A DNA stretch of 49,838 bases from Nitrospiria bacterium. Its GTDB lineage: Bacteria; Nitrospirota; UBA9217. Made by a program: the position numbers and the translations under genes. Position 1 is the stretch's first letter, and every line of letters starts with the position of its first letter. Positions 6,536-45,744 of this stretch are shown here, piece after piece. The notes beneath the pieces are model-generated. The model made no database searches and was not told the origin of the DNA. It was given only the letters and a program-made list of their open reading frames with translations. The stretch lies in contig CAKKRC010000059.1 in the NCBI GenBank assembly GCA_919902495.1, positions 1 through 49,838 on the forward strand, written 5' to 3'.

Positions 6536-7540
6536 TCAGTGCCGCAGGCTATCGACATGAGGAACGAGGCGCTGGTATTCCTCATAGGGTATCTGTGAAT
6601 GCCACTTGCCCGCAAGGACACCGATGCCGATGATGAGATAGAAAAACGCGATGAGCAGGACGGGATAGGCCAACGGTTTGAGGATGAAGGTCATTTTTCC
6701 CGCCTTCACGGTCATGTCCAGGGCGCCCGGCGACGGGCAGCGGCTCACGCAGGTCATGCAGCCGAAACACTCGCCGGACTTGATGACGTCTTTCTTCTCC
6801 ACATCGATAAGTGTGGGGCAGGCGGTCGTGCAGGCGTGGCAGTGGATGCACTTCTCCTCATTCCTGCGTATCTTGAGCGGGCTCCACCGGCTGATGATGC
6901 CGAGGAGCGCGCCGTAGGGGCAGAGGTAGCGGCACCAGAAGTTCTTGTACAGCAGTGACAGGACACCCAGGGCGACGAGGACCCAGAAGGTCAGTGCGGT
7001 CATGTCGGTGAAGAACTTGAGCATCTTGACGTCCGCAACCTTGTAGTAGTCGGTACCAAAGAACATGAGGATCCAGTTGCTGCCCATGGCGATGACGATC
7101 GCAACGAAGAAGAATGCAAACAGGGCGTACTTGATGGACCGCAGGCCGATGTCGGTGTACTTCTCGATCCGGAAGTTCCTGCCGAAGACCTTCTCACCGG
7201 CCATCCAGACATACTGTGACAGCGTACCGACCGGGCAGATCCAGCCGCAGAAGCCTTTTTTCAGGAACAGGGAAACGCCGGTGATGGCGATGAACAGGAC
7301 GAGGCCCGAGGGGTGGAGAGGCTCCACGAGACCGGTGACGGCGAAGAATTTGAAGGCCATGAGCCCGCCGATGGGAAGGAACGCGTCCACGGACGGAGGC
7401 CGCTGTACAAAGGGATTGGCCGGGTCCTCGAAGTGCAGCACGAACTGGTGGAATTCCCAGCCGGCATAGAGGGTGATCAGCAGGAACGCGATCTGTACCA
7501 CGTACCGGACGAAGCGGATCGAACTGCGGGGATAGGTCAT
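6536..7540 (-). CDS. Membrane polyferredoxin, NapH/CcoG-like 4Fe-4S protein
   Basis: 334 residues with about five membrane segments. Two paired cysteine signatures of the NapH/YccM type lie at helix ends (GWICPVG and CRYLCPYG), and two cytoplasmic 4Fe-4S ferredoxin motifs follow: CIHCHACTTACP and CFGCMTCVSRCP. Known family role: passing electrons from the quinol pool or cytoplasmic donors to a partner reductase. The partner is not identified; the gene lies directly downstream of selenoprotein A, so a role in supplying electrons to that protein or its substrate is possible (inference). An extended -10 (TGCTATAAT, minus strand 7547-7555) lies 7 nt before the ATG with no ribosome site between, so a leaderless transcript could start here in addition to read-through from upstream. 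Confidence 0.88.
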   Translation of the reverse strand: MTYPRSSIRFVRYVVQIAFLLITLYAGWEFHQFVLHFEDPANPFVQRPPSVDAFLPIGGLMAFKFFAVTGLVEPLHPSGLVLFIAITGVSLFLKKGFCGWICPVGTLSQYVWMAGEKVFGRNFRIEKYTDIGLRSIKYALFAFFFVAIVIAMGSNWILMFFGTDYYKVADVKMLKFFTDMTALTFWVLVALGVLSLLYKNFWCRYLCPYGALLGIISRWSPLKIRRNEEKCIHCHACTTACPTLIDVEKKDVIKSGECFGCMTCVSRCPSPGALDMTVKAGKMTFILKPLAYPVLLIAFFYLIIGIGVLAGKWHSQIPYEEYQRLVPHVDSLRH

Positions 7541-7602: not shown

Positions 7603-7848
7603 TCAGGACCGCTGCTTGATAGCGGCCTCAAGTTGTTCCTGCGTGATGTCGCAGCCCTCGAAGACCACCTTACCGTCGATCTCAACGGCCGGGAACTTGG
7701 GCAGGGACGCCCGCTGGAACAGGCCGAAGGAGGTCTTCTTGACGATCTCAACATCGAACGGATACTTCTTCTTCAGGTCCGTGACCACGGAACCGATATG
7801 ATTTCACCGTCCTCCCTGCGGATCGTTGAAGTAGAGCCGGATAAGCAT
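7603..7848 (-). CDS. Selenoprotein A: small thioredoxin-like protein with Sec15 (UGA read-through)
   Basis: 81 residues when the in-frame UGA at 7806-7804 is read as Sec. The ATG at 7848 has a perfect AGGAGG 7 nt upstream, inside the last codons of the GNAT gene, which ends 2 nt before it. The reading is MLIRLYFNDPQGGR-U15-NHIGSVVTDLKKK.., then EIVKKTS, LPKFPAVEIDGKVV and a C-terminal helix: a thioredoxin/glutaredoxin-like beta-alpha-beta pattern with U at the redox loop. Without read-through the product would be 14 residues and the remaining 66 codons, fully protein-like, would have no proper start. A close paralogue (21612-21878) has U at the same aligned site. A SECIS-type hairpin follows 9 nt after the UGA. 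Role inferred as a thiol/selenol redox protein; substrate unknown. The family name is not known to me. Confidence 0.8.
7776..7794 (-). promoter_or_regulatory. SECIS element of selenoprotein A
   Basis: Minus-strand GGTTCCGTGGTCACGGACC, 9 nt after the UGA. It folds as GGU/ACC, one bulged U, CCGU/ACGG and apical loop GGUC. This copies the architecture of the E. coli fdhF SelB-binding hairpin (GGU, bulged U, GCA, loop GGUC, from memory) with one more base pair. UGA to loop is 17 nt. Confidence 0.75.
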
Positions 7849-7850
7849 GT

Positions 7851-8291
7851 TCAGCCTCCTGTAAGGTCTTTGTGCATCGTAATATGGGGGATCGTGACTT
7901 CCGTAAAGACACCGGACTCTGCGATATAGCCCAACCGCTCAAAAAATCCGCGTGCCGTCACACGGCCATGAAGCGTCACCGTTCGGATGTTGCGGGCAAG
8001 GATGGCATCTTCCGCGCGCTTCATGAGCTCGATGCCGATCCCCCGGCCCCGGTACGCCCCTTCGACGGCAAGCTGCCGGGCCTTCGCGACGTCCCCGGAA
8101 AAAGCGATCAGCACGCATCCGATCACCTGGCCCTTGCCGTTTACGGCCACCAGATGGACCTGCTCGTCCTCGTCGCGCACATCCTGTTCGGACAGATGGA
8201 GGCCCAGGGGCATTCGCAGGACCCTGTTCCTCAGCTCCTTCTCCAGGGCGTACTCACGATCGTGCGTGGTTATTTGGCGATAGAGGATCAT
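7851..8291 (-). CDS. GNAT-family N-acetyltransferase
   Basis: 146 residues from the start preferred here (MILYRQITT..); upstream in-frame ATG (8309) and TTG (8318) add only 6-9 residues and none has a clear ribosome site. The GNAT acetyl-CoA signature is present: QLAVEGAYRGRGIGIELMKRAE, with the R-G-x-G-x-G/A-type loop RGRGIG, then a strand and ARGFFERLGYIAESGVF near the end. The small-molecule or protein substrate is unknown. Its last codons hold the ribosome site of selenoprotein A, so the two genes are probably translated from one message. Confidence 0.85.
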   Translation of the reverse strand: MILYRQITTHDREYALEKELRNRVLRMPLGLHLSEQDVRDEDEQVHLVAVNGKGQVIGCVLIAFSGDVAKARQLAVEGAYRGRGIGIELMKRAEDAILARNIRTVTLHGRVTARGFFERLGYIAESGVFTEVTIPHITMHKDLTGG

Positions 8292-8365
8292 GGGACAGTT
8301 CCCGGCCATCACGGACAAAATGATCGCGGGCAGTGTTTAGTAACTGCAGAATACAATTCTACTCA

Positions 8366-11981: not shown

Positions 11982-13274
11982 TTAGAACTCATACCTCGCT
12001 TGCGCATAGACATTGTCATTATTCGCAAATTGTCCGAACTGGCCCCACGGTTTGCCCCCGCCGAACACGTTCCCGCCAAGCGCTATCCATACTGAATCCG
12101 TAAGGTTGTACTTCACTTCGGGGTTCAGCAGGTAGTCTCTGTCCGAAAGACCGTAGAACGCGAAGAAGGACAGCCTCAGAGTTTGATGGATCATGAATTG
12201 CGTGAGGCGCACGGAAGCAAGCTGATGAAGACGCTTCTCCCGCGGGAAACCGGAAGGAAGATTCTGGACATAGGCTGAATGGTCCTGCATATGCTCGCCG
12301 TAATACTGTGCCCCGACGGTAAAGTCCTCCCAAAGCTGACGCTGATATCCGATCAAGTAGCGTGTTTGCGAATTGGGGATCATCGGATCAGTACCGTGCC
12401 GGTCCTGGCGGGAATCATAGTAGCCAGTTTCAAAACTCAGGACGCCGTCCAAGGCCCTGCCCTGAACGCTCGCGCCATATACGGAAAGCTCGGGATAGAA
12501 CAGGGTGAGCCTGGTCGGCGCGACGGGATTGTCCGGCAATACCGATGGTTGGCGTGAGAAGCCGTGATAGTAATACAATGAGGCATCGAATCCGGCCACA
12601 TCGCGATACACGCGCAATGCTTTCTCCGCCTTGTGAAAGTCTCTGTACGGATCTTGTGTTTCCCTATTCGTGATGCTTGCCATCGGATCGAACATCCGGA
12701 ATCTACTTGGGTCAGGATACTTGTTCGGCTCGAAATACGGGACCGCAATGAACTCGAACGATGCGAATCCCGGATACAGACCGACCTTTGCGCCGTCCAC
12801 TCCATTTTTCAGGTACTCCATCGGACGGCCTGAGAAGAACGCAGCGAAGTCTTTCGGGAACACGTCGTTGATGAACAGCAGGTCGCCGACACCCCAGGTG
12901 ACGACCTGCCTGCCGATCCGCGCATCCCATTTTTCGGATGTGTAGTCAGCGTAACCCTCCCGCAGTTCCATTATCGAATGTTTATCGATGTTGTCGTGAA
13001 ACGCATCGCCCTTGATAAACAGGCTGAACTGATCAGCCGTGGCTTCAAGCTTGACTTGAGCGCGCTCCTCGGACCACTTGAAATCCTTTCCATCGGGATT
13101 ATCCTCGGTCGTATTCATTGAATAATTTCCCTGCACGAAGCCGTGCAGGGACGTTTCTACGGCCACAGCAGACAACGGCCACACGAGCAAGAGCAAACAG
13201 CAGGCGACCAGCGATACGACGTCTGATTTCTGTTGTCTGTTGTCTGTCGTCTGTCTTCTGCTCACTCGATCCAC
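11982..13274 (-). CDS. Outer-membrane beta-barrel protein, DUF1302-like
   Basis: About 430 residues from GTG 13274; a second GTG at 13265 overlaps the stop of the LolA-like gene (GTGA) and is equally possible. A signal-peptide core LVACCLLLLVWPLSAVAV is preceded by an odd n-region (RQTTDNRQQKSD) that is simply the translation of an ACAGACGACAGACAAC-type repeat. The mature part is rich in alternating aromatic strands (LHGFVQGNYSMN, WDARIGRQVVTWGVGDLLFINDVFP) and ends in phenylalanine (YAQARYEF), as outer-membrane barrels do. It lies last in a three-gene run with an MMPL exporter and a LolA-like protein, the usual context of DUF1302-type proteins. Confidence 0.82.
   Translation of the reverse strand: MDRVSRRQTTDNRQQKSDVVSLVACCLLLLVWPLSAVAVETSLHGFVQGNYSMNTTEDNPDGKDFKWSEERAQVKLEATADQFSLFIKGDAFHDNIDKHSIMELREGYADYTSEKWDARIGRQVVTWGVGDLLFINDVFPKDFAAFFSGRPMEYLKNGVDGAKVGLYPGFASFEFIAVPYFEPNKYPDPSRFRMFDPMASITNRETQDPYRDFHKAEKALRVYRDVAGFDASLYYYHGFSRQPSVLPDNPVAPTRLTLFYPELSVYGASVQGRALDGVLSFETGYYDSRQDRHGTDPMIPNSQTRYLIGYQRQLWEDFTVGAQYYGEHMQDHSAYVQNLPSGFPREKRLHQLASVRLTQFMIHQTLRLSFFAFYGLSDRDYLLNPEVKYNLTDSVWIALGGNVFGGGKPWGQFGQFANNDNVYAQARYEF
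13219..13262. repeat. CTGTTGTCTGTCGTCTGT repeat inside a coding start
   Basis: Degenerate tandem CTGTTGTCTGTTGTCTGTCGTCTGTCTTCTG, the same word family as in the gap at 18423-18530. Here it lies at the junction of two overlapping genes and supplies about a dozen codons of the barrel protein's N-terminus. Confidence 0.7.
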
Positions 13275-14062
13275 CTCTTCGGCGGCTGCTTGAGATACCG
13301 CTCGGTAAAGAGACTGTCCTCGATTCCCACATTGTATTCTGCTTTGAGAAACGATACTTCGGTCATGTGTCCGCTCAAGAGGTTTTTCATCGATCTTTTT
13401 ATGATCGTGGGATGACCTTTCACGTCCTTGATCTCGTCCGCGCTGAAGACCCGGTACAACTCGCCCTTCTTGTCATAATACTCTTCCTTGATCGGCAAAA
13501 AAGTGCCCTTGTCGATCCAAGAGAGCTTGTAGCTGTATTCCATCTCAGCCGCCTTTGGAGTGCTCTTGATGACCGTGCAATCACAGTCGCCGATTTTTTC
13601 ATCCTTCACGACGGCGTGGGTATCATCTTCCAGATTCCGGCCTGAAATGTCCTCGTAGGTAAAATCGGAGCCCACGAAACTGGACCGCTTGTCCTGTGCA
13701 GCGATCCGCCTGACCATGTTGATGGCGGGGACAAAGAGCCACCGGTCGGCGTCCTTGCCCGGATATTTGTAGACCATGAACGTCATGTTCCGCACGTCGG
13801 CCGGCTGGAAGAAATACATGAAATACTTCTGCTCGCCGCCAGGCTGGCCGTAGTTCTTCCTGAGCATCATCATTTCGCGCACCCGTTCCTGGCCGCCTTT
13901 GCTGACGAGCTTCATCATGACCCGCGCCTTGAGATCGGCGCCGGGGTAGAGAAAGGCCGCCTGGGACTTCTTCATGATCTCATCAGCGGTCATGGCATGT
14001 ACATGACCTGAGACAAAAACGACCGTGATCAGTGCAGCCGCCAGTAGAAATATCTTTTTCAT
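13262..14062 (-). CDS. Outer-membrane lipoprotein-sorting (LolA-like) protein
   Basis: 266 residues. Signal peptide MKKIFLLAAALITVVFVSGHVHA, then a domain typical of the LolA-like outer-membrane lipoprotein-sorting family: ADLKARVMMKLVSKGGQERVREM, FFQPADVRNMTFMVYKYP, DRWLFVPAINMVRRIAAQDKRSSFVGSDFTYEDISGR (with the conserved F-x-GSDFTYED segment) and a C-terminal half of barrel-like strands. Probably periplasmic, binding a lipid or hydrophobic molecule for transfer to the outer membrane. Its start overlaps the exporter's stop (ATGA) and its stop overlaps the barrel's start, so all three are translationally coupled. Confidence 0.9.
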   Translation of the reverse strand: MKKIFLLAAALITVVFVSGHVHAMTADEIMKKSQAAFLYPGADLKARVMMKLVSKGGQERVREMMMLRKNYGQPGGEQKYFMYFFQPADVRNMTFMVYKYPGKDADRWLFVPAINMVRRIAAQDKRSSFVGSDFTYEDISGRNLEDDTHAVVKDEKIGDCDCTVIKSTPKAAEMEYSYKLSWIDKGTFLPIKEEYYDKKGELYRVFSADEIKDVKGHPTIIKRSMKNLLSGHMTEVSFLKAEYNVGIEDSLFTERYLKQPPKRWIE

Positions 14063-16359
14063 CGCACTTCCCCCTTGAATAGCCAGCCCTGCGTCAACGT
14101 AATGAGGGCCGGAAGATAGAGAATCGTCATCAATGCGCTCAGCAGCATCATGCTCACGATGAACGCGCCCACGGTGATATACGGCGTAAGCGGCGCGAAG
14201 AGCATGACCGCGAAGGCGGCGGCGAACAGGATCGCGTTCCGCATGATGCCCTTGCCCGGCCGCGCGGCGGTCCAGAGCAGCGCATCGGCCAATGATTCTC
14301 CGGGCGTTTCCTTCATACGCTGCCGCAGCCTGCTCACGAAGTGGATGGCGAAGTCAACTGCCATGCCCAGGGACAGGCAGCTCATCACCGAGATCGGCAT
14401 ATCGAAGTCTTTCCCCACGAAACCGACAACCCCGTAAATGAGAATGATCGTGAACAGGAGAGGTATATAGCCGATCAGTGCCCATTTGATGGAACGGAAG
14501 TCATAGGCAAGGATCGCGAACACGGCGATCAGCGCCAGGATAAGGCCTTTTACCATATCCCAGAGGACTTCATGGTTCCAGACCAGGTTGAAGTAGGCGA
14601 TGCCTGCGGGCTTGAACACCATGAGCGTCGGGTTTTCCTTCCGGTATTCGTCGACCGCCGCGATGACCGATTCCATCGCCTTCGCGTCCCACGTCTTGAG
14701 CTGCACCCAGATATTGGCTTTGCGGAAAGGATAGTCCGCGACATTGTCGAGGTCGGACGGCTTTGCCGACATGGCGAAGAGGAACAGGTACTGTCCGATC
14801 ATCTCCTTGTTCTCGGGGACCGCGTCGTACTTCGGGTCGTCATTATGAAGCACGCGGTTGATCCGTTTCACATAATCCACAACTGACGTCGTCTTGCCCA
14901 CGACCGGCAGCTTTTCCAGGCGCCGCTGCAGCCCTTCGATATAGCGCATGGCTTCCGGCGTTTTTATGTAATCGTCCTTGTCGGAGATCGCCACAATGTA
15001 GCCGAGCGACGTTCCGCCCAGGGCCTTGTTCATGACCGTGTCCGCTACGCGGACATCGCTGCCTTTTTTGAACCATTCCACGAGATTATTGTTCACGACC
15101 GTCTTCGAGATGCCGATAATGGCCGCGACAACGAGCACAACGCCGACGAGAACCGTCGTAGCGGGTTTCCGGATGCCGAGCCCGGCAAGCTTCTTGAGGA
15201 ACGACGACCCGCCCGCCTCACTGTCCTCCGACCGGGATATCTTCTCTATTTTCTCGTCCTTTACAAAGGTGAACATGGCGGGAATGAAGCTGAAGCTCAA
15301 TACTCTGAGGACGATGGTCCCGAACGCCACAAGACCGCCGAAAACCTTGACCGGGATGATATTCATGAACAACAGCACGCCAAAACCCGCTGCCGTTGCC
15401 AGGGCGGTATTGCGCACAGGCCTGCTTACGGCGTTCATGGTCGCGATGATCGCGGCCCGCTTGTCCTTCTTTTCACGATAGCGGAAATAGAACTCATTGA
15501 AGATGTGCATGCTGTCCGTTGCGATGGCCATCATGAACACGGGGGCCATGGAGCTCATGATATGGATCGGGAAGCCGAGCCCGATAAGAAGTCCCATGCT
15601 CCAAACAATGCTGATCATGGCGTCCATCATGAGCGTCATGGAGAGGAACAGGTCCTTGAACATAAGGAACCTGACCAGCAGCATGACCATCCCGGCTATG
15701 GGCGCGAATACCGCCATGAGCTTGAACATGTCCGCTCCGAAGGTGTCCCGCGCCACGGGATCGCCGGCAACGTAATAGGTCTCGTCGCCCTTCTCTGTCT
15801 TGATGATCTCCCTGATCTTGTCGGCGATCTCTTTTCCATTGCCGCCTTTTTCAAGGGGAACATAGATCGCCGTGGTCTTGCCGTCCTTTGAAATGATCCG
15901 GTCGATAAAAAGCGGGTTTTCAAAAAGCGCCTTGCGCATAACGGCCATCTCTTTATCCGTCTTCGGCGCCATGATCATGAGAGGGCCGACCTTCAGCGTT
16001 TCGCCTTCAACAGTCACATTGTCGATGGTCGTGAAGCTCGATACGTCCCGGGCCGCAACGCCTTTGATCTTCAGGATCTCATCGGTGATCCTCTGTACCT
16101 TGCCGAGCGTATCGGAATTCAGGATGCCTTTCTCGTTCTGAATGCCGAGGACGATCATGTCCTCATAGAGGCCAAAGGTTTTCTCAACCTCGTCGTTTCC
16201 CACCCGGACGTCCGACGTTGGCGGCAGCATGTTCTTGGGATTGGTGTCCGTCCTCACCTTCGGGAACTGGGTCAGGAAGAGGAGCGTGAGGATAATCGAC
16301 AGAGCGACAATCAGCTTCGGGTGGTCGACCGAGAATTCGACCAGAGAAAATTTCTTCAT
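14059..16359 (-). CDS. MMPL/RND-superfamily exporter
   Basis: 766 residues. Start at ATG 16359, which has AGGAGG upstream and directly precedes MKKFSLVEFSVDHPKLIVALSIILT; the longer frame adds 31 unlikely residues. Layout: TM1, large periplasmic loop (50-220), TM2-6 with AIATDSMHIFNEF, second loop (about 430-590), TM8-12 with SLGMAVDFAIHFVSRL; the two TM4/TM10-type acidic residues needed for proton coupling are present. MMPL proteins of this kind move lipids or hydrophobic compounds across the inner membrane. Together with the LolA-like protein and barrel it suggests an envelope lipid-export path. Confidence 0.92.
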   Translation of the reverse strand: MKKFSLVEFSVDHPKLIVALSIILTLLFLTQFPKVRTDTNPKNMLPPTSDVRVGNDEVEKTFGLYEDMIVLGIQNEKGILNSDTLGKVQRITDEILKIKGVAARDVSSFTTIDNVTVEGETLKVGPLMIMAPKTDKEMAVMRKALFENPLFIDRIISKDGKTTAIYVPLEKGGNGKEIADKIREIIKTEKGDETYYVAGDPVARDTFGADMFKLMAVFAPIAGMVMLLVRFLMFKDLFLSMTLMMDAMISIVWSMGLLIGLGFPIHIMSSMAPVFMMAIATDSMHIFNEFYFRYREKKDKRAAIIATMNAVSRPVRNTALATAAGFGVLLFMNIIPVKVFGGLVAFGTIVLRVLSFSFIPAMFTFVKDEKIEKISRSEDSEAGGSSFLKKLAGLGIRKPATTVLVGVVLVVAAIIGISKTVVNNNLVEWFKKGSDVRVADTVMNKALGGTSLGYIVAISDKDDYIKTPEAMRYIEGLQRRLEKLPVVGKTTSVVDYVKRINRVLHNDDPKYDAVPENKEMIGQYLFLFAMSAKPSDLDNVADYPFRKANIWVQLKTWDAKAMESVIAAVDEYRKENPTLMVFKPAGIAYFNLVWNHEVLWDMVKGLILALIAVFAILAYDFRSIKWALIGYIPLLFTIILIYGVVGFVGKDFDMPISVMSCLSLGMAVDFAIHFVSRLRQRMKETPGESLADALLWTAARPGKGIMRNAILFAAAFAVMLFAPLTPYITVGAFIVSMMLLSALMTILYLPALITLTQGWLFKGEVR

Positions 16360-16414
16360 GCGCACCTCCTGCAATTTGGATACAAGAATAAAGATATTTG
16401 CATATATATACTCT

Positions 16415-16445
16415 AAAAACATCCCCCGCCGCAATTGCAGCGGGG
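16415..16445 (-). terminator. Rho-independent terminator closing the sulfur run
   Basis: Minus strand: stem CCCCGCTGC / GCGGCGGGG with loop AATT and one mismatch, then GATGTTTTTAG (A run 16415-16419 on plus). It lies just after the DsrE2-like gene and separates the sulfur genes from the exporter run. Confidence 0.65.
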
Positions 16446-16455
16446 ATTGCATGGC

Positions 16456-16887
16456 TTAGAACGTGAGATTCATATCAGCGGGAATGACTGTTTCTTTATA
16501 GTATTTTGCGGGATCGGCAACCTTCACGCCGTCGATCAACTCTGACGGTACAATATTGAACAGCGCAACGTTCAAAGGACAGGCAAGAACCGTCCCGCCT
16601 TCGGCGATCAGCATGAAGAACATGTCTTCCACGCTCGGCAGGTTCATCTCCTCCATCTTTTGCATAACCGCGTCGCCCTCTTCCTTCGGCTGATCAGGCA
16701 GACACTTGAGGGTCTTCACCTTTTCCTTGTGCACGGCATTAATGCCCCGTGAGCCGAAGAACATCGTGACCTTCGAGCCCTCTCGCAGCAGGCTCAGCGC
16801 GGTCATGAGCGCGTTATAGACCTGACAGAGCTCCTCGTGAAAGCACATGATCGACACATTCTTGACAATCTTTGTCATTGAGTTCAT
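16456..16887 (-). CDS. DsrE2/DsrEFH-like sulfur-carrier family protein
   Basis: 143 residues from ATG 16887, which overlaps the stop of the ArsR gene (ATGA). A second ATG at 16878 is an alternative start. The fold pattern is that of DsrE-like proteins: VSIMCFHEELCQVYNALMTALSLLREGSKVTMFFGSRGINAV, then a charged linker, then FFMLIAEGGTVLACPLNVALFNI, where the cysteine of LACPLNV sits at the usual DsrE2 active-site position. Two further cysteines lie near the N-terminus. Probably a cytoplasmic sulfane-sulfur carrier; last gene of the sulfur run, followed by a terminator. Confidence 0.82.
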   Translation of the reverse strand: MNSMTKIVKNVSIMCFHEELCQVYNALMTALSLLREGSKVTMFFGSRGINAVHKEKVKTLKCLPDQPKEEGDAVMQKMEEMNLPSVEDMFFMLIAEGGTVLACPLNVALFNIVPSELIDGVKVADPAKYYKETVIPADMNLTF

Positions 16888-17213
16888 CTCCCTTCCCTGA
16901 TAGTTCTTGCCCTTGGCGCCTTCCCTATCATGCCGGCAAGAGCTTCCTGCATAACGACACAGGCATGGGCGATCTTGTCGTCTGCAATGCTGTAGTAGAT
17001 GTTGGCTCCATCCCTCTTTGCCTTCAAAACTCCTTTCATGCGCATTACGGACAGCATAAGCGAGGTATGGGACTTCGATTCGCCGATCTTCTCCTGAATG
17101 GCCGTGACGCGCATTTCACCTGTCCGCAGCAGATCCAAGATCTCGATCCGTTTCGGGTTTGTGAAGGTCTTGCAGAATTCAGCGTGTAATTCGTAAAATT
17201 CTTTTTTCTTCAT
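16884..17213 (-). CDS. ArsR-family regulator, possible reactive-sulfur sensor
   Basis: 109 residues. ATG 17213 overlaps the stop of the SQR-like gene (CCATGA), fixing the start. Winged-helix pattern: CKTFTNPKRIEILDLLRTGEMRVTAIQEKIGESKSHTSLMLSVMRMKGVLKAKRDGANIYYSI. Only two cysteines, C14 and C85, placed near the N-terminal and C-terminal helices. That resembles the two-cysteine layout of persulfide sensors SqrR/BigR, though spacing is not identical and the metal-type ELCVCD motif is absent. Its position next to an SQR-like gene supports sulfide or polysulfide sensing (inference). Confidence 0.85.
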   Translation of the reverse strand: MKKKEFYELHAEFCKTFTNPKRIEILDLLRTGEMRVTAIQEKIGESKSHTSLMLSVMRMKGVLKAKRDGANIYYSIADDKIAHACVVMQEALAGMIGKAPRARTIREGR

Positions 17214-18400
17214 GGCAGATTGCTCACCCCATTTTTCATCTTCCACAGGAAGTACTTTTCAAATCCGACCTTCATCCATTTTGCCCAGACAGCCTTCTTT
17301 GTATACGAGCTCTGCCTCGGCGGCAGGACCGGATAGGCCTTCATGATGGCCGCTGTGTTCCCCATGTCCATGAGGCAGATGACACCGAGTTCGTCCGCGA
17401 TGGGCGGCGTCTTTCCGGTGACATCGGAAGCGATCGTCGCCGCGGCCGTCTTGGCCATCTTGACGGTCATGAATCCCGTTTTTGGAACGCCCGTGGGCAC
17501 CGGCGTCACCTCGGGCGGCGCGATGGCTATCGCGACTCCGATCGCAAATATATTTTTGTGCTTTGTGTGACGGTAGTTCTTGTCAACGGGGATGAAGCCC
17601 CGCGGATTACCGAGCGGCGCGACAGCGGGAACGCCCTTGAACGGCGGCGCGATCATGGCGAGCTTGAAGGGGATCTTCGTACCGTCCTTTAATTTGATCT
17701 CTCCCGGCGTGACCTCTTCGATGGCCTGGCTGACGATCGGCTTGATGTCCCGCTCAGCGAACTCGTACTCCATGAAGGTCTTGGAAGCGCCGAGTCCGCC
17801 TACGCCCATATGGCCGAGGTAAGGCTCGGAGGTGAGATAGAGGATAGGAACCTTATGGCGCATCTTCCGCCTGCGAAGCTCGGCATCCATCTCGAAAGCA
17901 AGCTCGTAGGACGGGCCGAAGCAGCTCACCATCTGCGATGAGCCGAGGACTATGGGACCGGGATTTTCGAGAACGCTCCTCCACGTCGCTCCGGTCTTCA
18001 CCGCATGATCGAGCGTGAACGTGCAGGCGGTATATCCTTTATCCGGTCCGAGGCCGGGAATCTCATCAAAGGCGAGATGCGGACCGGTTGAGATGACGAG
18101 AAAGTCATACGGCAGCTCTTTCCCTTTTGACGTGATGACCTTCGATGCGTCGGCATCTACCTGTTTCGCAGCCTCATGGACGAAATCAATTCCCTTCGGT
18201 TTGAGTATTTCGCTCACCTTGAGCGTGATGTCCTCCGGCTTCCGCCACCCCATGATGAGCCACGGCAGGGACGGCAGGAACACGAACCGGTCGTCATCGC
18301 TCACCACGGTCACATCCGCTTTCTTGCCGAGCAGCCGCTTAAGTTCAAACGCCGCCGTCAACCCCCCGAACGATCCACCTAAAACAACGATCTTTGCCAT
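17210..18400 (-). CDS. Sulfide:quinone oxidoreductase-like FAD flavoprotein
   Basis: 396 residues. N-terminal FAD-binding GGSFGGLTAAFEL (8-20), a second dinucleotide-binding stretch around residue 150, ISTGPHLAFDEIPG and the late FAD motif NIFAIGVAIAIAP (283-295). Three cysteines, C126, C160 and C342, fall where the SQR catalytic triad lies (C128, C160, C356 in the Acidithiobacillus enzyme, from memory). This favours true sulfide oxidation over a generic NADH dehydrogenase II. The C-terminal amphipathic helix (WAKWMKVGFEKYFLWKM) suits membrane attachment. Predicted reaction: sulfide to polysulfide or sulfane sulfur, electrons to quinone. The product could be handed to the neighbouring Tus/Dsr-like carriers. 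Confidence 0.88.
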   Translation of the reverse strand: MAKIVVLGGSFGGLTAAFELKRLLGKKADVTVVSDDDRFVFLPSLPWLIMGWRKPEDITLKVSEILKPKGIDFVHEAAKQVDADASKVITSKGKELPYDFLVISTGPHLAFDEIPGLGPDKGYTACTFTLDHAVKTGATWRSVLENPGPIVLGSSQMVSCFGPSYELAFEMDAELRRRKMRHKVPILYLTSEPYLGHMGVGGLGASKTFMEYEFAERDIKPIVSQAIEEVTPGEIKLKDGTKIPFKLAMIAPPFKGVPAVAPLGNPRGFIPVDKNYRHTKHKNIFAIGVAIAIAPPEVTPVPTGVPKTGFMTVKMAKTAAATIASDVTGKTPPIADELGVICLMDMGNTAAIMKAYPVLPPRQSSYTKKAVWAKWMKVGFEKYFLWKMKNGVSNLP

Positions 18401-18422: not shown

Positions 18423-18530
18423 GTACAGATGTCAGATTGCAGATGACAGACTAAAACCCATAAGCATTGTTGTGCCTGCTATCGATATCTGTCGTCTGTT
18501 GTCTGTCCTCTGTTGTCTGTCGTCTGTCTT
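18423..18530. repeat. ACAGACAACAGACGACAG-type repeat in the TusB/SQR gap
   Basis: The 129-nt gap between the TusB-like stop and the SQR start is filled by degenerate tandem words: CTGTCGTCTGTTGTCTGTCC and relatives at 18489-18530, and an inverted partner CAGATGTCAGATTGCAGATGACAG at 18426-18449. Same family as 13219-13262. No promoter was recognised inside. Confidence 0.65.
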
Positions 18531-18811
18531 CAAAACATTCCTGCGACCTTCTCGCCGCCCGTTATGATGTCCGTCATTTTGTCGTAGTCGATGATTGTTA
18601 CGCGGTCATCCATCTCGGAATCCTTGAGACCCCGAAGCCTCTTGTCGTCATCGAGGACATACACTGCGCCCGAAACAGCCCCCAGCCGCTCCTTCTGACC
18701 AAAATAGACACCGTTCTGCAGAAGGATAAGATCGGCCCCGCTTTCCTTCGCGAGGGTCAATCCGAGTGCTCCATCAGTCGTATCCGGCGCGCTTTTTATC
18801 ATCACAAGCAT
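18530..18811 (-). CDS. TusB/DsrH-like sulfur-relay protein
   Basis: 93 residues with GAGGAGG upstream of ATG 18811. It begins MLVMIKSAPDTTDGALGLTLAKESGADLILLQNGVYFGQ, the TusB/DsrH pattern, including the LLQNGVY strand-turn and later AVYVLDDDKRLRGL. DsrH normally carries a single C-terminal cysteine; none is present here, so it may be a structural partner. Forms a set with the TusC-like gene 10 nt upstream and the DsrE selenoprotein before that, i.e. a DsrEFH/TusBCD-like trio. Confidence 0.8.
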   Translation of the reverse strand: MLVMIKSAPDTTDGALGLTLAKESGADLILLQNGVYFGQKERLGAVSGAVYVLDDDKRLRGLKDSEMDDRVTIIDYDKMTDIITGGEKVAGMF

Positions 18812-18821
18812 GGCATCCTCC

Positions 18822-19175
18822 TCAGAATATCATTGTCGTTGTCGCTTCTTTCACCAGTCCGGCGATCTCTTTGCTGCTGACTATCTTTACGTTTTCAACA
18901 AGATCATTCGATGCGACGCGCTGCGCCTTAAGTGAAGCAACGTCGGCATAGACCGCGACTCCCATCTCCAGGCAATCCTTGAGCGTGCCCTCAAGATTCG
19001 TGAATCCGGTCCCGGTGTCGTCCTGTCCTTTTTTTGCAAGCAGCACCCCGCCGTCCACCAGGATCAGGTCAACACCCATTTCGAACGACACCGCGCCGAG
19101 AGCATGCCTCACAGCCTCAGCCGCATTGATGTCTCCGTAGGGCGATCGTTTCAGTATCATTGCAATGGATGCCAT
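18822..19175 (-). CDS. TusC/DsrF-like sulfur-relay protein
   Basis: 117 residues from ATG 19175, preceded by AAGGAGG; a longer frame from 19235 reads through the CCGCATTC repeat and is rejected. Sequence start MASIAMILKRSPYGDINAAEAVRHALGAVSFEMGVDLILVDGGVLLAKKGQ fits DsrF/TusC. It includes the glycine-rich VDGGVLL turn and DLENVKIVSSKEIAGLV-type end. One cysteine in LKDCLEMGVAVYADV. Cytoplasmic, expected to assemble with the DsrE-like and DsrH-like partners encoded on each side. Confidence 0.82.
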   Translation of the reverse strand: MASIAMILKRSPYGDINAAEAVRHALGAVSFEMGVDLILVDGGVLLAKKGQDDTGTGFTNLEGTLKDCLEMGVAVYADVASLKAQRVASNDLVENVKIVSSKEIAGLVKEATTTMIF

Positions 19176-19195
19176 TTCATCCTCCTTGTGTTTTG

Positions 19196-19226
19196 ATTCC
19201 GCACTCCGCATTCCGCACTCCGCATT
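19196..19226. repeat. CCGCATTCCGCACT-type short tandem repeat
   Basis: ATTCCGCACTCCGCATTCCGCACTCCGCATTTT-like run in the 56-nt gap between the DsrE selenoprotein and the TusC-like gene. Relatives occur at 42134-42165 and 49379-49402. Confidence 0.7.
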
Positions 19227-19231
19227 TTGAA

Positions 19232-19588
19232 TCATGCCCCGAGATTAAGCCAGACATCGGTCTCGCCCATGGTTACGAACAGTCCTTTCAGGGAGCCGAC
19301 CTCCGTGTTTGCAAGATAATCGTCTTTCGCCGCACGGCGAAAGTTCACGCAGCCTCCTCAGAGATACACCTTTAAGCCTTTCTGGATGAGCCGGGCAAAC
19401 TCCTCCTCGGCGTTCAGAATGCCCTTCGCCTTCTGCTTTGTCAGAAAACAGTAGATGCCGTCAGCAGATGCGATGAGGTTCACGGTGTGGCCCTTGTTCA
19501 GGGCCGATTCAGCGATGCGGGCGCTCGTCAGCGTGTTCTCGTAGGAATAGGGCGATGTTGACAGATACAGCGTGATCGTTTTCGGCAT
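19232..19588 (-). CDS. DsrE/TusD-like selenoprotein with U-G-G-C motif (UGA read-through)
   Basis: 118 residues when the UGA at 19360-19358 is read as Sec77. Start ATG 19588 follows GAGGAGG. The first 76 residues (MPKTITLYLSTSPYSYENT..KGHTVNLIASADGIYCFLTKQK..LIQKGLKVYL) are a DsrE N-terminal half, which would be truncated at the exact place where DsrE/TusD proteins have their active-site cysteine loop. Reading on gives U-G-G-C, then RRAAKDDYLANTEVGSLKGLFVTMGETDVW, the expected DsrE C-terminal half ending at a proper TGA. A hairpin of SECIS type lies 14 nt after the UGA. Expected role: sulfane-sulfur carrier with a selenol-thiol pair; DsrE-like selenoproteins are known from surveys of Sec-using bacteria. 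Confidence 0.85.
19324..19343 (-). promoter_or_regulatory. SECIS element of the DsrE-like selenoprotein
   Basis: Minus-strand CTTTCGCCGTGCGGCGAAAG: perfect 8-bp stem with apical loop GUGC, 14 nt after the UGA (UGA to loop 22 nt). G and U at the first loop positions match the bacterial SECIS rule. Confidence 0.75.
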
Positions 19589-19613
19589 AGGGTCCTCCTC
19601 CCTGCCCCTGGCC

Positions 19614-20765
19614 TCATTGCTGCGGACCAAGGGGAATTCTTGCGTGGTATAGGAAATAGGCGATCGGCTCGACATTGTTATAGCCTATCTTTTTCCGCCG
19701 TGCTTCATCAAGAAGATGGTACCTGACGGTCACGTCCACGGCGGCGGGAGCGCCGGGGCCGCTCCTGATCAGGGGAAGCCTGAACTCTCTCGGCTGCTGG
19801 TACGGCAACCGCGTGTCCCGGAGATCGACGATGAACGGCCTCCAGAGGATGTACCGTTTCATCGCGTACGCCTTTTCCTTCAGCACCTCCCCTCCCGGTC
19901 CCAGGAGTTTCAACTCGAGGGTCAGATGCCGGTCCGGGGTGCCGGTCGGAAGATAGTGGGCCGCCCCCACGTTCGTCAGCGTGACGACCAGCCCGTCATC
20001 CTCCAATCTATGGTCGACCTGCAGCGACTCCTTCACGCGCTCAGGTTCATGTCCTCCGTGGAACAGATGCTGTCGCCCTTTCCGGGCCGGCATCCCCTCG
20101 GCTGCCGGCCGCACGACGGGCGGCATGTGGCAGGAAACGCAGTCTATCGTCTGTTTACCTGCTTCTATCTCCGCGACGGTGCCGCATGGTGGAATAGTGT
20201 AGAACGTGTCCCATCGTTTTCCCGCTACCACATGGCACTTCAGACAGGGTTTGATCCCCTGCGACATATTGGGATCATGCTCTACAGGATGGGGCGCCCT
20301 GTCCGTCGGGAACGGGCCGACGATCCTGCCGTTGCGAATGTGGCAGACCGCGCAGGTCACGCCTTCGTCCCGGAGCGATGCGTCGAATTCCGGGTTCGGT
20401 ATAAGAATGGGATCGAATTTATCGCGGTCCCGGAATCCCAGCACGAGGTCCTGCTGCTGGTTCACCAGCGGCGTATGGCAGTTGAGACATATCTGCAGGG
20501 ACCCGTCGTATTTGAAATCAACCTGGAAGTACGGCTCGGTCCACGCCCGGGCGTGCATGCTGCCGGCCCACTCGCGGTAGATCTCCCGGTGGCAGGTCCC
20601 GCAGTCCTTTGCGCTCAACGATGCGATGCCGCGGGGCGTCTCGACCTGCATCGGCCTTTCAAATCGCTCGTCGACGACAAAGATGTTCATAGGCCGCAGG
20701 AGCCGCCAGAGCAGGAACAGGACGATCAGCGCCGAAAGGATCAGCCATGCCGTTTTCTTTGTCAT
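19614..20765 (-). CDS. Membrane-anchored pentahaem cytochrome c
   Basis: 383 residues. An uncleaved N-terminal membrane segment (about 5-23) is followed by five CxxCH motifs: CGTCH, CLNCH, CAVCH, CLKCH and CVSCH, all in the first 225 residues, with many extra histidines as distal ligands. The C-terminal 150 residues (RLEDDGLVVTLTNVGAAHYLPTGTPDRHLTLELKLL..) are a beta-rich domain without haem. It resembles cytochrome c-554-type multihaem proteins. Periplasmic electron carrier. It lies 26 nt before the DsrE selenoprotein and 58 nt after the TauE gene, so it is embedded in the sulfur run. Confidence 0.9.
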   Translation of the reverse strand: MTKKTAWLILSALIVLFLLWRLLRPMNIFVVDERFERPMQVETPRGIASLSAKDCGTCHREIYREWAGSMHARAWTEPYFQVDFKYDGSLQICLNCHTPLVNQQQDLVLGFRDRDKFDPILIPNPEFDASLRDEGVTCAVCHIRNGRIVGPFPTDRAPHPVEHDPNMSQGIKPCLKCHVVAGKRWDTFYTIPPCGTVAEIEAGKQTIDCVSCHMPPVVRPAAEGMPARKGRQHLFHGGHEPERVKESLQVDHRLEDDGLVVTLTNVGAAHYLPTGTPDRHLTLELKLLGPGGEVLKEKAYAMKRYILWRPFIVDLRDTRLPYQQPREFRLPLIRSGPGAPAAVDVTVRYHLLDEARRKKIGYNNVEPIAYFLYHARIPLGPQQ

Positions 20766-20823: not shown

Positions 20824-21615
20824 TCATCGGCCGGTCACTATCTGATACCACATCCTGAGGCCCGTGACCGCGATGATGACCGCGATGGCCATCCGCAGGT
20901 ATTTTGTGTTCACTTTCTTGCTCATGGTCCCGCCGAGCTGGGCGCCGGGCACCGTACCGACGACGAGCGCGAGCGCAGCCGGCCAGAGGATCTGGCCGGT
21001 GATCATTTTCCCGATCGTTCCGGTGACCGCGCCGAAGAAGACGATCCCGAGGGTGCTGCCGATCACGATGCGCGTGGGAATGTTCAGGAGATAGATCATG
21101 ACTGGAATATAGATGAAGGCGCCCGGCGCTCCCACCATGCCTCCGAAGCATCCGATGGCGAGGCTGACCGCCGCGGCCAGGGGTCTGTTATACTCGATCG
21201 CCTCCGGCGCGATGCCCTCGCCCTGCTCCCGCTTTGGAATGAACATGGCCATCGCGGCGATCACGGCCAGGGTGGCAAAGATGGCGAGAAGGAGTTCACT
21301 CTGCGTATTCCGGGAATAGAGGGAGCCGGCGAGATTCCCGGCGGCATTGGAGATGCCCATGGTGAACAGGAGCGACCTGCTCACGAACCTGTTCTTGTGA
21401 TGGACGATGACGCCGGTGAGGGACGCCGAGAGGACCTGGACCATGCTGACCGCGGCCACCTGCTTCATGTCGAACTGCCCCACCCCGAGAAGCGGCGGAA
21501 CATACAGAAGCAGGGGGATCATGAAGATGGCGCCGCCCAGACCCAAAGGGCCCGACAGAAATCCGCCGCCGAGGCCGAGGCAGAGCAGCGTGATGATGAG
21601 GGAGAGGTCCATCAC
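20824..21615 (-). CDS. TauE/SafE (DUF81) membrane permease
   Basis: 263 residues, about eight membrane helices. Two glycine-rich repeats typical of the family: GGGFLSGPLGLGGAIFMIPLLL near the N-terminus and GGMVGAPGAFIYIPVMIYLL in the middle, followed by GTVPGAQLGGTMSKKVN. Family members move sulfite, sulfoacetate, taurine-related or other sulfur anions. The ATG at 21615 overlaps the stop of selenoprotein B (TGATG), so the two are translationally coupled; this suggests a shared task in handling a sulfur compound (inference). Confidence 0.9.
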   Translation of the reverse strand: MMDLSLIITLLCLGLGGGFLSGPLGLGGAIFMIPLLLYVPPLLGVGQFDMKQVAAVSMVQVLSASLTGVIVHHKNRFVSRSLLFTMGISNAAGNLAGSLYSRNTQSELLLAIFATLAVIAAMAMFIPKREQGEGIAPEAIEYNRPLAAAVSLAIGCFGGMVGAPGAFIYIPVMIYLLNIPTRIVIGSTLGIVFFGAVTGTIGKMITGQILWPAALALVVGTVPGAQLGGTMSKKVNTKYLRMAIAVIIAVTGLRMWYQIVTGR

Positions 21616-21878
21616 GCGCCTTCCCTTGGCCTGCCGGTCAGGGCCGCCCGCAACTGCTCAACATCGGCCACGCCGTCCCGTACGATGAAGGTCCCGTCCA
21701 CGATGACCGACGGGCAGGGGGGCTTGTCTGCAAGCACGGCATATTCCGGTGATGTCTTCTTGATGATCCTGATCTCGGCCCCGAACTCCTGCGCCGCCCG
21801 CAGGGCGGCGTCCTGGTTCGCCGATCATCGCTTCCCCAGGGGATCGTTCGCGTACAAGGTGATCGTGTGCTTCTGCAT
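21612..21878 (-). CDS. Selenoprotein B: small thioredoxin-like protein with Sec18 (UGA read-through)
   Basis: 88 residues with the UGA at 21827-21825 read as Sec. The ATG at 21878 directly follows the ArsR stop (TAGATG) and has GGAG 7 nt upstream. Reading: MQKHTITLYANDPLGKR-U18-SANQDAALRAAQEFG, then EIRIIKKTS, PPCPSVIVDGTFIVRDG and a C-terminal helix; one further cysteine in the PPCPS loop. It aligns end to end with selenoprotein A (LY-NDP-G-RU, I-x-KKTS, P-x-V-x-x-DG shared). Conventional calling sees no gene here, leaving a 264-nt hole in an otherwise packed operon. Probably a cytoplasmic thiol/selenol oxidoreductase; substrate unknown. Confidence 0.82.
21788..21810 (-). promoter_or_regulatory. 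SECIS element of selenoprotein B
   Basis: Two overlapping foldings on the minus strand: CCTGCG-GGCGG-CGCAGG (21788-21804; loop starts with GG, 26 nt after the UGA) and CGCCGCC-CTGCG-GGCGGCG (21792-21810). The first meets the apical-G rule better. Confidence 0.55.
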
Positions 21879-22220
21879 CTATCGTCTCCTCTCTCCGGGA
21901 TACGTTCCTTTTCTCGTCACCGGACAGCAGGCCGGTGCAGGAATATCTTCTTCATACTGTTTCTTGAGGATTTCGAGGAGGTCAGGAATGAAGGGTTCTT
22001 TGAGAAAATAGCACTTGAGCCTGCCGTCGACGAAATAATCGACGATATGATGCGAGCGCAGCAGTTTGAGGTGCTGCGACACGTTCGGCTGGCTGATGTC
22101 GAGAGCGTCCTCGAAGTCACTCACGCACTTGACACCCTGCACAAGTTCTTCAAGGATCCTGATCCGGGCGGGATGGGCGATCACTTTTAATAGCTCTAAC
22201 CTTCCGTCTGTAGAAATCAT
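21879..22220 (-). CDS. ArsR-family transcriptional regulator heading the sulfur run
   Basis: 113 residues. ATG 22220 follows GGAGGT; an in-frame start at 22253 lies within the operator region and is rejected. Winged-helix pattern HPARIRILEELVQGVKCVSDFEDALDISQPNVSQHLKLLRSHHIVDYFVDGRLKCYFL. Cysteines: C32 in the KCVSDF helix (the place of the ArsR metal motif ELCVCD), C70, and a C98-C99 pair in ACCPV near the C-terminus. It may sense a thiophilic metal(loid) or a reactive sulfur species. It is the first gene of the run and presumably autoregulates through the palindrome at 22237-22264. Confidence 0.88.
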   Translation of the reverse strand: MISTDGRLELLKVIAHPARIRILEELVQGVKCVSDFEDALDISQPNVSQHLKLLRSHHIVDYFVDGRLKCYFLKEPFIPDLLEILKKQYEEDIPAPACCPVTRKGTYPGERRR

Positions 22221-22236
22221 CGAGTGGACCTCCAGC

Positions 22237-22264
22237 AAAACATATGCAAACATTAATATGTTTT
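22237..22264 (-). promoter_or_regulatory. Candidate ArsR operator (9-bp inverted repeat)
   Basis: Perfect arms AAAACATAT (22237-22245) and ATATGTTTT (22256-22264) around a 10-nt spacer, 17 nt upstream of the ArsR start codon. It lies immediately downstream of a minus-strand TTGACA (22273-22278), so a bound repressor would cover the promoter. Confidence 0.65.
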
Positions 22265-44340: not shown

Positions 44341-45744
44341 ATGTTGCGAAAACGCATCAGCACCTTTTCGCTCGCAGCGGCCCTGATGATCGGCTCATTC
44401 GCCGGTCAGGCCGTGGCGCAGGAAAAGGCCGCAGCACCGCCGACCAGGCCCACTGTGGCCAAGATCTGCGGGAACTGCCACCAGCCGCAGCCCGGGTCCA
44501 TCCGGGGGAACTTCGACAGCGTCGCGTACAAGACCAGGTCGATCCAGGTGAAGATCGATGAGACGACGGAGATCCTGAGGTTCGACGACAAGCTCAAGAT
44601 CGTGAACGTTCAGGCCCCGGCAGACAGCCCGGACCAGCCGCTCCGCAGTCTCAAGAAAGGCAAAGAGGTCCGCATCGAGTACACCGAAAAGGACGGCAAG
44701 AAGTTCGCCACCCTTATTTCTGCCAAGACGCCCATCAAGGTCGCTCCCGAGAAGCAGGTGAAGACCGAAGAAATGGAGAAGCTCGTCGCCCAGGGACCGG
44801 AGAAGGGCAAGTACATGCTCATCGACGCCCGGCCGCTCCCGCGTTTCCAGGATGGCTCCATTCCCACGGCCGTGAACATCCCCTTCCCGGCCTTCGAGAA
44901 GATGAAGGACAAACTGCCCGCGGACAAGACGATGCTCATCATCTATTACTGCGCGGGCGTCACCTGAGCGATGAGCCCTGACTCTGCCCGGCGGGCGGAG
45001 AGCTTAGGTTACACCAACGTAAAAGTTTACCATGACGGCGTGCCGGAGTGGGTGAAGCGGAATTACCTCGTACTGTCAACGCAATTTCTAAAGGAAGCGT
45101 GGATCGAAAAGGATATCCCGCACGTGCTGGTTGACGTGCGTCCCGCGGCAGACACTGAGAAGGGATCCATCAAGGGCGCCGTGACCATCCCGGTCGCGGA
45201 CCTGGAAAAATCTATCACCAAATTCCCGCCCAAGGACAAGAAGGCCCCGATCATGATCTATGACCAAAAGGGCGGCGGCGACGCGGTGAAGGCCGCGAAA
45301 GCGCTCATCGCCGCGGGCTACGCACCCGTGGACATCGTGTCGGGCGGGTTTGACGCCTGGAAAGCAGCGGGATTCCCGGTCCAGACAGGCAAGCTCACCG
45401 AGACGATCGTCTATGTGCCCAAGCCGCGACCCGGTGAGATATCCATCGAGGACTTCACCAGGATCGCCAAGGCCACACCGGCCGATACGCTCATCCTCGA
45501 CGTGCGGAACCGAGACGAGGGCAACGCCGGCATGATTCAGGGCGCGAAACTTGTGCCCGACGAAGAGATCCTGGACCGGTTAGCCGATATTCCAAAGGAC
45601 AAAAAGATCGTAGCCCACTGCTCGACGGGGGTACGAGCCGAAATGGCCTACCACAAGCTGAAGGAAAAGGGCTACAACGTCCAGTTCCTGAACGCCAAGG
45701 CCGATATCAACGACAAGGGTGAGTTCAAGATCGAGAAACTGTAA
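44341..45744 (+). CDS. Haem-binding triple-rhodanese selenoprotein (UGA read-through, Sec209)
   Basis: 467 residues when the UGA at 44965-44967 is read as Sec. ATG 44341 follows AGGAGG. Signal peptide ending AVAQ, one c-haem motif CGNCH (C43-C46-H47), a beta-rich linker domain (about 60-135), then three rhodanese domains. Domain 1 (about 150-235): LIDARPLPRFQDGSIPTAVNIPF..IIYYCAGVT-U-AMSPDSARRAESLGYTNVKVYHDGVPEW; C204 and U209 form C-x-G-x-x-U where homologues have C-x-G-x-x-C. Domain 2 (about 260-345): the active-site position is D308 (MIYDQKGGG), so catalytically dead. Domain 3 (about 375-460): intact HCSTGVRA (C427). Read as two ORFs, the split would cut domain 1 exactly in its active-site loop. 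Periplasmic; moves sulfane sulfur or selenium. SECIS follows. Confidence 0.87.
44982..45000 (+). promoter_or_regulatory. SECIS element of the rhodanese selenoprotein
   Basis: CTCTGCCCGGCGGGCGGAG: 8-bp stem with one U-G pair and loop GGC, 14 nt after the UGA (UGA to loop 22 nt). Loop starts with GG. Confidence 0.7.

Follow-up and report, generated by a model that had tools for sequence, protein, structure and literature searches.

A sister subfamily of the selenoprotein TsoC encoded among sulfide:quinone reductase and DsrE-type genes in a Nitrospiria bacterium

The stretch of DNA analysed here, called the window, comprises 49,838 nucleotides of contig CAKKRC010000059.1 (assembly GCA_919902495.1) from a Nitrospiria bacterium. 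Two short genes in it, A and B, each contain an in-frame TGA. Are these genes for selenoproteins, to which family do they belong, and what might B do among the sulfur-related genes that surround it? The initial annotation placed both genes correctly; both lie on the minus strand. A plus-strand reading of the two ORFs gave nonsense and was rejected. The elements are as follows.

7603..7848, minus strand: gene for selenoprotein A, a TsoC (NF045708) of 81 aa with U15
7804..7806, minus strand: UGA (Sec) codon of A
7773..7796, minus strand: SECIS-like hairpin of A, with a GGUC apical loop (CCGU-GGUC-ACGG)
21612..21878, minus strand: gene for selenoprotein B, of a TsoC-like sister subfamily, 88 aa, with U18 and an invariant Cys55 before a predicted cis-Pro
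21825..21827, minus strand: UGA (Sec) codon of B
21792..21810, minus strand: SECIS-like hairpin of B, with a core stem that starts 16-19 nt past the UGA and an apical loop containing G

With TGA read as U, the translations are MLIRLYFNDPQGGRU...QRS for A and MQKHTITLYANDPLGKRU...REGA for B. The two had been said to match over their whole length with U in one column, and this holds: they align without gaps over 78 residues (33% identity, E = 3e-12), U opposite U. Both carry the motif N-(E/D)-P-x-G-x-x-U with Sec, as NDPQGGRU in A and NDPLGKRU in B.

Is the TGA read as selenocysteine? Homologues of B were found in about 30 genomes, mostly of Nitrospirota, with the TGA at the same codon and 39-60% identity on either side of it. 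In a sample of 396 genomes of that phylum, 33 have matches, most of them with the TGA inside; six B-type genes have no stop there. Counted as distinct genes, the U codon is TGA in 25 and TGC in six, and no other codon occurs. The six thus supply the Cys homologues that the initial annotation had proposed to look for. The named relatives are nearly all labelled "Nitrospirae bacterium", plus one Desulfobacterales bacterium; a search of plasmids and viral contigs found no homologues of B. Since an Rfam search of the window gave no match, the SECIS was tested by comparison. Among TGA genes, the inner five pairs of the B hairpin form in 123 of 125 cells (98%), and the six core pairs are 90% paired, versus 19-59% in controls with slid partners; one pair occurs as all four standard pair types. 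In the Cys-type (TGC) genes, pairing has decayed to 61%. TsoC genes have a conserved hairpin of their own, with the GGUC loop. The genome also encodes the Sec machinery, that is, selA, selB and tRNA-Sec.

That the TGA codons are true stops in decayed or spurious ORFs is thus hardly credible, although frame-shifted or truncated copies of B do occur at two loci (L045 and L078). Against it stand the 25 distinct genes with TGA at the same codon, the conservation of the protein on both sides, the covarying stem, the Sec machinery and the Cys orthologues. Judged from the sequences, the match of B around its TGA is not a chance one: the shared codon, the conserved flanks and the TGC genes all speak for this. 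The earlier view of A and B as paralogous small selenoproteins is borne out by the same-codon TGA in relatives, the SECIS-like hairpins and the Sec machinery. As for the broken copies (7738-7577 in L045, 8301-8402 in L078), the ArsR-DsrE-TusC-DsrH-SQR operons around them are otherwise intact, and one genome (G053) has a second, intact B elsewhere (L044).

The pair had been put forward as a possibly undescribed family. For A this fails. The NCBIfam model NF045708 (TsoC, the NEPxGxxU motif selenoprotein) has a curated cut-off of 45 bits; A scores 77.7 bits (69.5 by genome search) and B 33.6. Across the 396 Nitrospirota genomes, scores run from 46 to 117 bits for TsoC-type genes and from 23 to 43 for all genes of B type. 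In a tree built from 44 sequences, the B and TsoC groups are set apart with support of 99/98; its inner branching is uncertain, owing to a short alignment and to the long branch of the Desulfobacterales TsoC. On these scores, A is a clear member of TsoC. B, below the cut-off and in a clade of its own, is by the same measures an unmodelled sister subfamily of TsoC, not a new family without known kin. Matches to other known Sec families had been named as a possible refutation. The TsoC match of A is one; for SelW-like, Grx-like, ArsC-like, SaoT and HUIPC families, neither A nor B has an NCBIfam or Pfam match above cut-off. TsoC and the "three selenoprotein operon" appear in a 2026 review (PMC13188914) that cites Haft & Tolstoy 2025; the review lists TsoC by motif and states no function. 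The TsoC-naming paper (mSystems 2025) may already report part of the B subfamily or of the operon linkage described below.

B has the signature PPCPSV, in which Cys55 belongs to an invariant PCPS before the predicted cis-Pro; Sec-type TsoC have no Cys there. Several Cys-type TsoC have a CxxC shortly before the predicted cis-Pro. Within one such group (family f17; L147, L149, L151, L072), an extra CxxC or CxxxC-like cluster lies a few residues before it, as if a second thiol pair had accompanied the loss of Sec.

The structure prediction proposed at the outset gives B a small thioredoxin fold (AlphaFold pLDDT 81, pTM 0.67). A sequence search of solved structures with the B profile found no match. 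With the model, Foldseek finds thioredoxins at TM 0.5-0.66, ArsD (3mwh) at 0.61 and MTH895 at 0.54. The thioredoxin core (beta-alpha-beta-alpha-beta-beta-alpha) is recovered with moderate confidence, given the pTM of 0.67 and an rmsd of 4-5 Å. The TsoC profile aligns CPYC of the archaeal thioredoxin 1nho onto G-x-x-U, which places U at the second Cys of CxxC, the first Cys being replaced by Gly. Thus, the description of a thioredoxin-like protein lacking CxxC stands, with GxxU instead. The accompanying remark that U has no close Cys is true of the sequence and doubtful for the fold of B, since a Cys at the position of the invariant Cys55, just before the predicted cis-Pro, would be expected in this type of fold to face U18.

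What surrounds B? From 22253 down to 11982, genes on one strand form the row ArsR-B-TauE-multihaem cytochrome-DsrE-TusC/DsrF-DsrH-SQR-ArsR2-DsrE2-MMPL-LolA-like-barrel, with these members besides B.

21879..22253, minus strand: ArsR/SmtB regulator, with Cys 43, 81, 109 and 110 invariant in the orthologues beside B
20824..21615, minus strand: TauE/SafE permease
19614..20765, minus strand: multihaem c-type cytochrome (c554-like)
19358..19675, minus strand: DsrE-like protein
18822..19235, minus strand: TusC/DsrF-like protein
18530..18811, minus strand: DsrH/TusB-like protein
17210..18400, minus strand: sulfide:quinone reductase (SQR), sharing its redox cysteines with the Aquifex enzyme
16884..17246, minus strand: second ArsR-type regulator
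16456..16887, minus strand: DsrE2-like protein
14059..16452, minus strand: MMPL/RND-type transporter
13262..14062, minus strand: LolA-like lipoprotein-sorting protein
11982..13274, minus strand: outer-membrane barrel as predicted from sequence, kept together with the MMPL and LolA genes

Comparison of SQR with the Aquifex enzyme (3hyv) gives E 1.4e-99, with the cysteine motifs VSCFGPSYE and ICLMDMG aligned. The predicted barrel has no Pfam or NCBIfam match. All 18 ArsR orthologues located upstream of B retain the four cysteines. The spacing C43-C109 is 66 residues, equal to that of C41-C107 in SqrR, and C43 aligns at the ELCV metal-sensor position of SmtB. Since the cysteines fall at metal-sensor positions and do not clearly match those of SqrR, the protein is not put forward here as a persulfide sensor, and a metal or metalloid could act as inducer.

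This setting is conserved. The context was read at 31 B loci, at 24 of which an ArsR gene is directly upstream of B. SQR (at least 69% identity) is nearby at 16, almost always with DsrE, TusC and DsrH, and is missing from the stretch read in about half; a TauE-type permease is found in about half. At L153 and L155, TsoC occupies the place of B (ArsR-TsoC-DsrE-TusC-DsrH-SQR), and it adjoins TauE at L147-L151 and L072. A slot that holds either B or TsoC, ArsR-(B/TsoC)-TauE-DsrE-TusC-DsrH-SQR-DsrE2-MMPL-LolA-barrel, is a new observation. A Desulfobacterales genome (G396) has the row MMPL-LolA-barrel-ArsR-TsoA-TsoB-TsoC-B-VTT protein, where TsoB is a rhodanese/DsbD fusion; in it, B comes right behind the three described selenoprotein genes, as a fourth. 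The Cys-type B genes of family f4 adjoin a TlpA-like redoxin. The MMPL, LolA and barrel genes (11982-16452 in the window, minus strand) accompany B or TsoC in two phyla, with 59-88% identity, and may have an export or envelope role.

Locus A is arranged differently, in the order GNAT-TsoC-NapH-like ferredoxin-SDR.

7851..8318, minus strand: GNAT acetyltransferase, upstream of A
6536..7540, minus strand: NapH-like membrane ferredoxin beside A, as also in genomes of the same genus (L047, L069)

In those two genomes the order TsoC-NapH-SDR is kept, and SQR lies directly upstream in L069. A and B are each followed by a membrane protein gene, as had been noted: the NapH-like ferredoxin after A and the TauE permease after B. 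Genes of a TctABC transporter lie between A and the B cassette, so A and B do not form one operon. An ORF in this interval suspected of being selD was rejected, as it encodes the TctC-like receptor of the TctABC operon. Elsewhere in the window, 44341-45744 (plus strand) encodes a protein of 467 aa, probably a third selenoprotein. It combines three rhodanese-like domains, the first of them similar to the one in TsoB, with a TGA in frame (U209, motif YYCAGVTU).

What, then, is the role of B? The conserved operon with SQR, DsrE/DsrF/DsrH, DsrE2, TauE and ArsR, together with the Sec/Cys orthologues and the predicted thioredoxin fold, suggests a role in handling sulfane sulfur. We give about an even chance to the proposal that B is a cytosolic Sec/Cys thioredoxin-fold acceptor or reductase of sulfane sulfur (persulfide or polysulfide), acting with SQR and DsrE-type carriers. 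The steps would be as follows. SQR would oxidise sulfide and release the product as sulfane sulfur. U18 of B would attack the persulfide or polysulfide, and Cys55, before the cis-Pro, would resolve the Se-S intermediate. B would then deliver the sulfur to a carrier of the DsrE type or reduce it to sulfide. TauE may export a product, and ArsR may be the switch that turns the operon on. Where TsoC takes the place of B in related genomes, the mechanism would have to do without Cys55. It could also be that the operon serves general thiol stress and that SQR is only a bystander in it. The fuller proposal, that B represents an undescribed subfamily and a fourth Tso selenoprotein, which would reduce or transfer sulfane sulfur from SQR anaerobically by means of a split Sec-Cys pair, one residue in helix 1 and the other in the cis-Pro loop, is held tentatively, at somewhat less than an even chance.

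The main rival, on account of the metal-sensor-like ArsR cysteines and a fold that ArsD also has, holds that B and TsoC use thiol/selenol groups to handle metal(loid)s, as ArsD- or ArsE-like chaperones or reductases for As, Sb, Hg or Se, with a metal-sensing ArsR and with TauE and MMPL as exporters. The ArsR Cys at the metal-sensor position and the C-terminal CC pair agree with it, as do a weak similarity to the MTH895/ArsE family, the Foldseek match to ArsD and the annotation of TsoR as an ArsR/SmtB metalloregulator. We nevertheless consider it unlikely: the conserved neighbours included no identified ArsA, ArsB, ArsC, Acr3 or MerA, conservation is strongest for the partners SQR and the DsrE-type sulfur proteins, and the Foldseek scores are about equal for ArsD and for ordinary thioredoxins.

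A general low-molecular-weight redox protein, either a disulfide reductase or a peroxide scavenger induced incidentally by sulfide stress, would account for the thioredoxin fold and for the TlpA-like redoxin beside Cys-type B genes. It would leave unexplained the lack of a CxxC or CxxU motif in B and the fixed slot among sulfur-transfer genes, for which a housekeeping reductase would have no use; this reading appears improbable. Selenium metabolism offers another setting, in which B would carry or reduce selenium species for selenophosphate synthetase while TauE or YeeE moved oxyanions of Se or S. A selD-like gene does adjoin B at L054, L061 and L063 and lies near TsoC at L144, and a YeeE-type Sulf_transp gene adjoins B at L056 and L058. 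We think such a role quite improbable, as selD is close to B at only three of the 31 loci, some B genes are of the Cys type, SQR with DsrEFH turns up near B far more often, and the window gene once taken for selD is the TctC-like receptor. The selD-like ORFs at L061, L063 and L054, beside B and a TauE permease, start late; extended to their true start, they may contain another TGA.

Of these results, the operon linkage is the most useful. The association of TsoC and B with SQR, DsrE-type carriers, TauE and ArsR yields a testable hypothesis of Sec-based persulfide handling in anaerobes. If a split Sec-Cys pair does act on SQR-derived sulfane sulfur, the whole Tso group would be assigned to reactive-sulfur metabolism. 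In addition, the PPCPSV and GKRU signature could allow annotation pipelines to recover B genes that would otherwise be truncated by gene callers at their TGA.

Among known systems, the small thioredoxins of the MTH895/ArsE type (TIGR00412, PF13192) resemble A and B in their small thioredoxin fold and a weak match in the core. They differ in having CxxC where A and B have GxxU, and the scores of 23.1 bits for A and 14.6 for B lie below the TIGR00412 cut-off of 62. Sulfide-response operons controlled by SqrR/BigR (SQR, rhodanese, TauE) likewise combine an ArsR-family regulator with SQR and sulfur-transfer genes. The window cassette, by contrast, includes a selenoprotein and no identified persulfide dioxygenase, and its ArsR cysteines appear to lie at other positions. 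The Tso system (TsoA, TsoB, TsoC, TsoR) differs from the window genome, where TsoA is absent, TsoB is represented by partial rhodanese and DsbD-type matches only, and the cassette has SQR, DsrEFH and TauE instead; the likeness lies in the Desulfobacterales genome, where TsoA-TsoB-TsoC and then B stand behind ArsR-type and window-type MMPL-LolA-barrel genes. The closest relative is TsoC itself. B falls below its cut-off, forms a separate clade and has PPCPSV with an invariant Cys, whereas the two agree in length, fold, N-D/E-P-x-G-x-x-U motif and U column. TsoC adjoins B in that Desulfobacterales genome, and the two occur together in one operon at L049 and L057.
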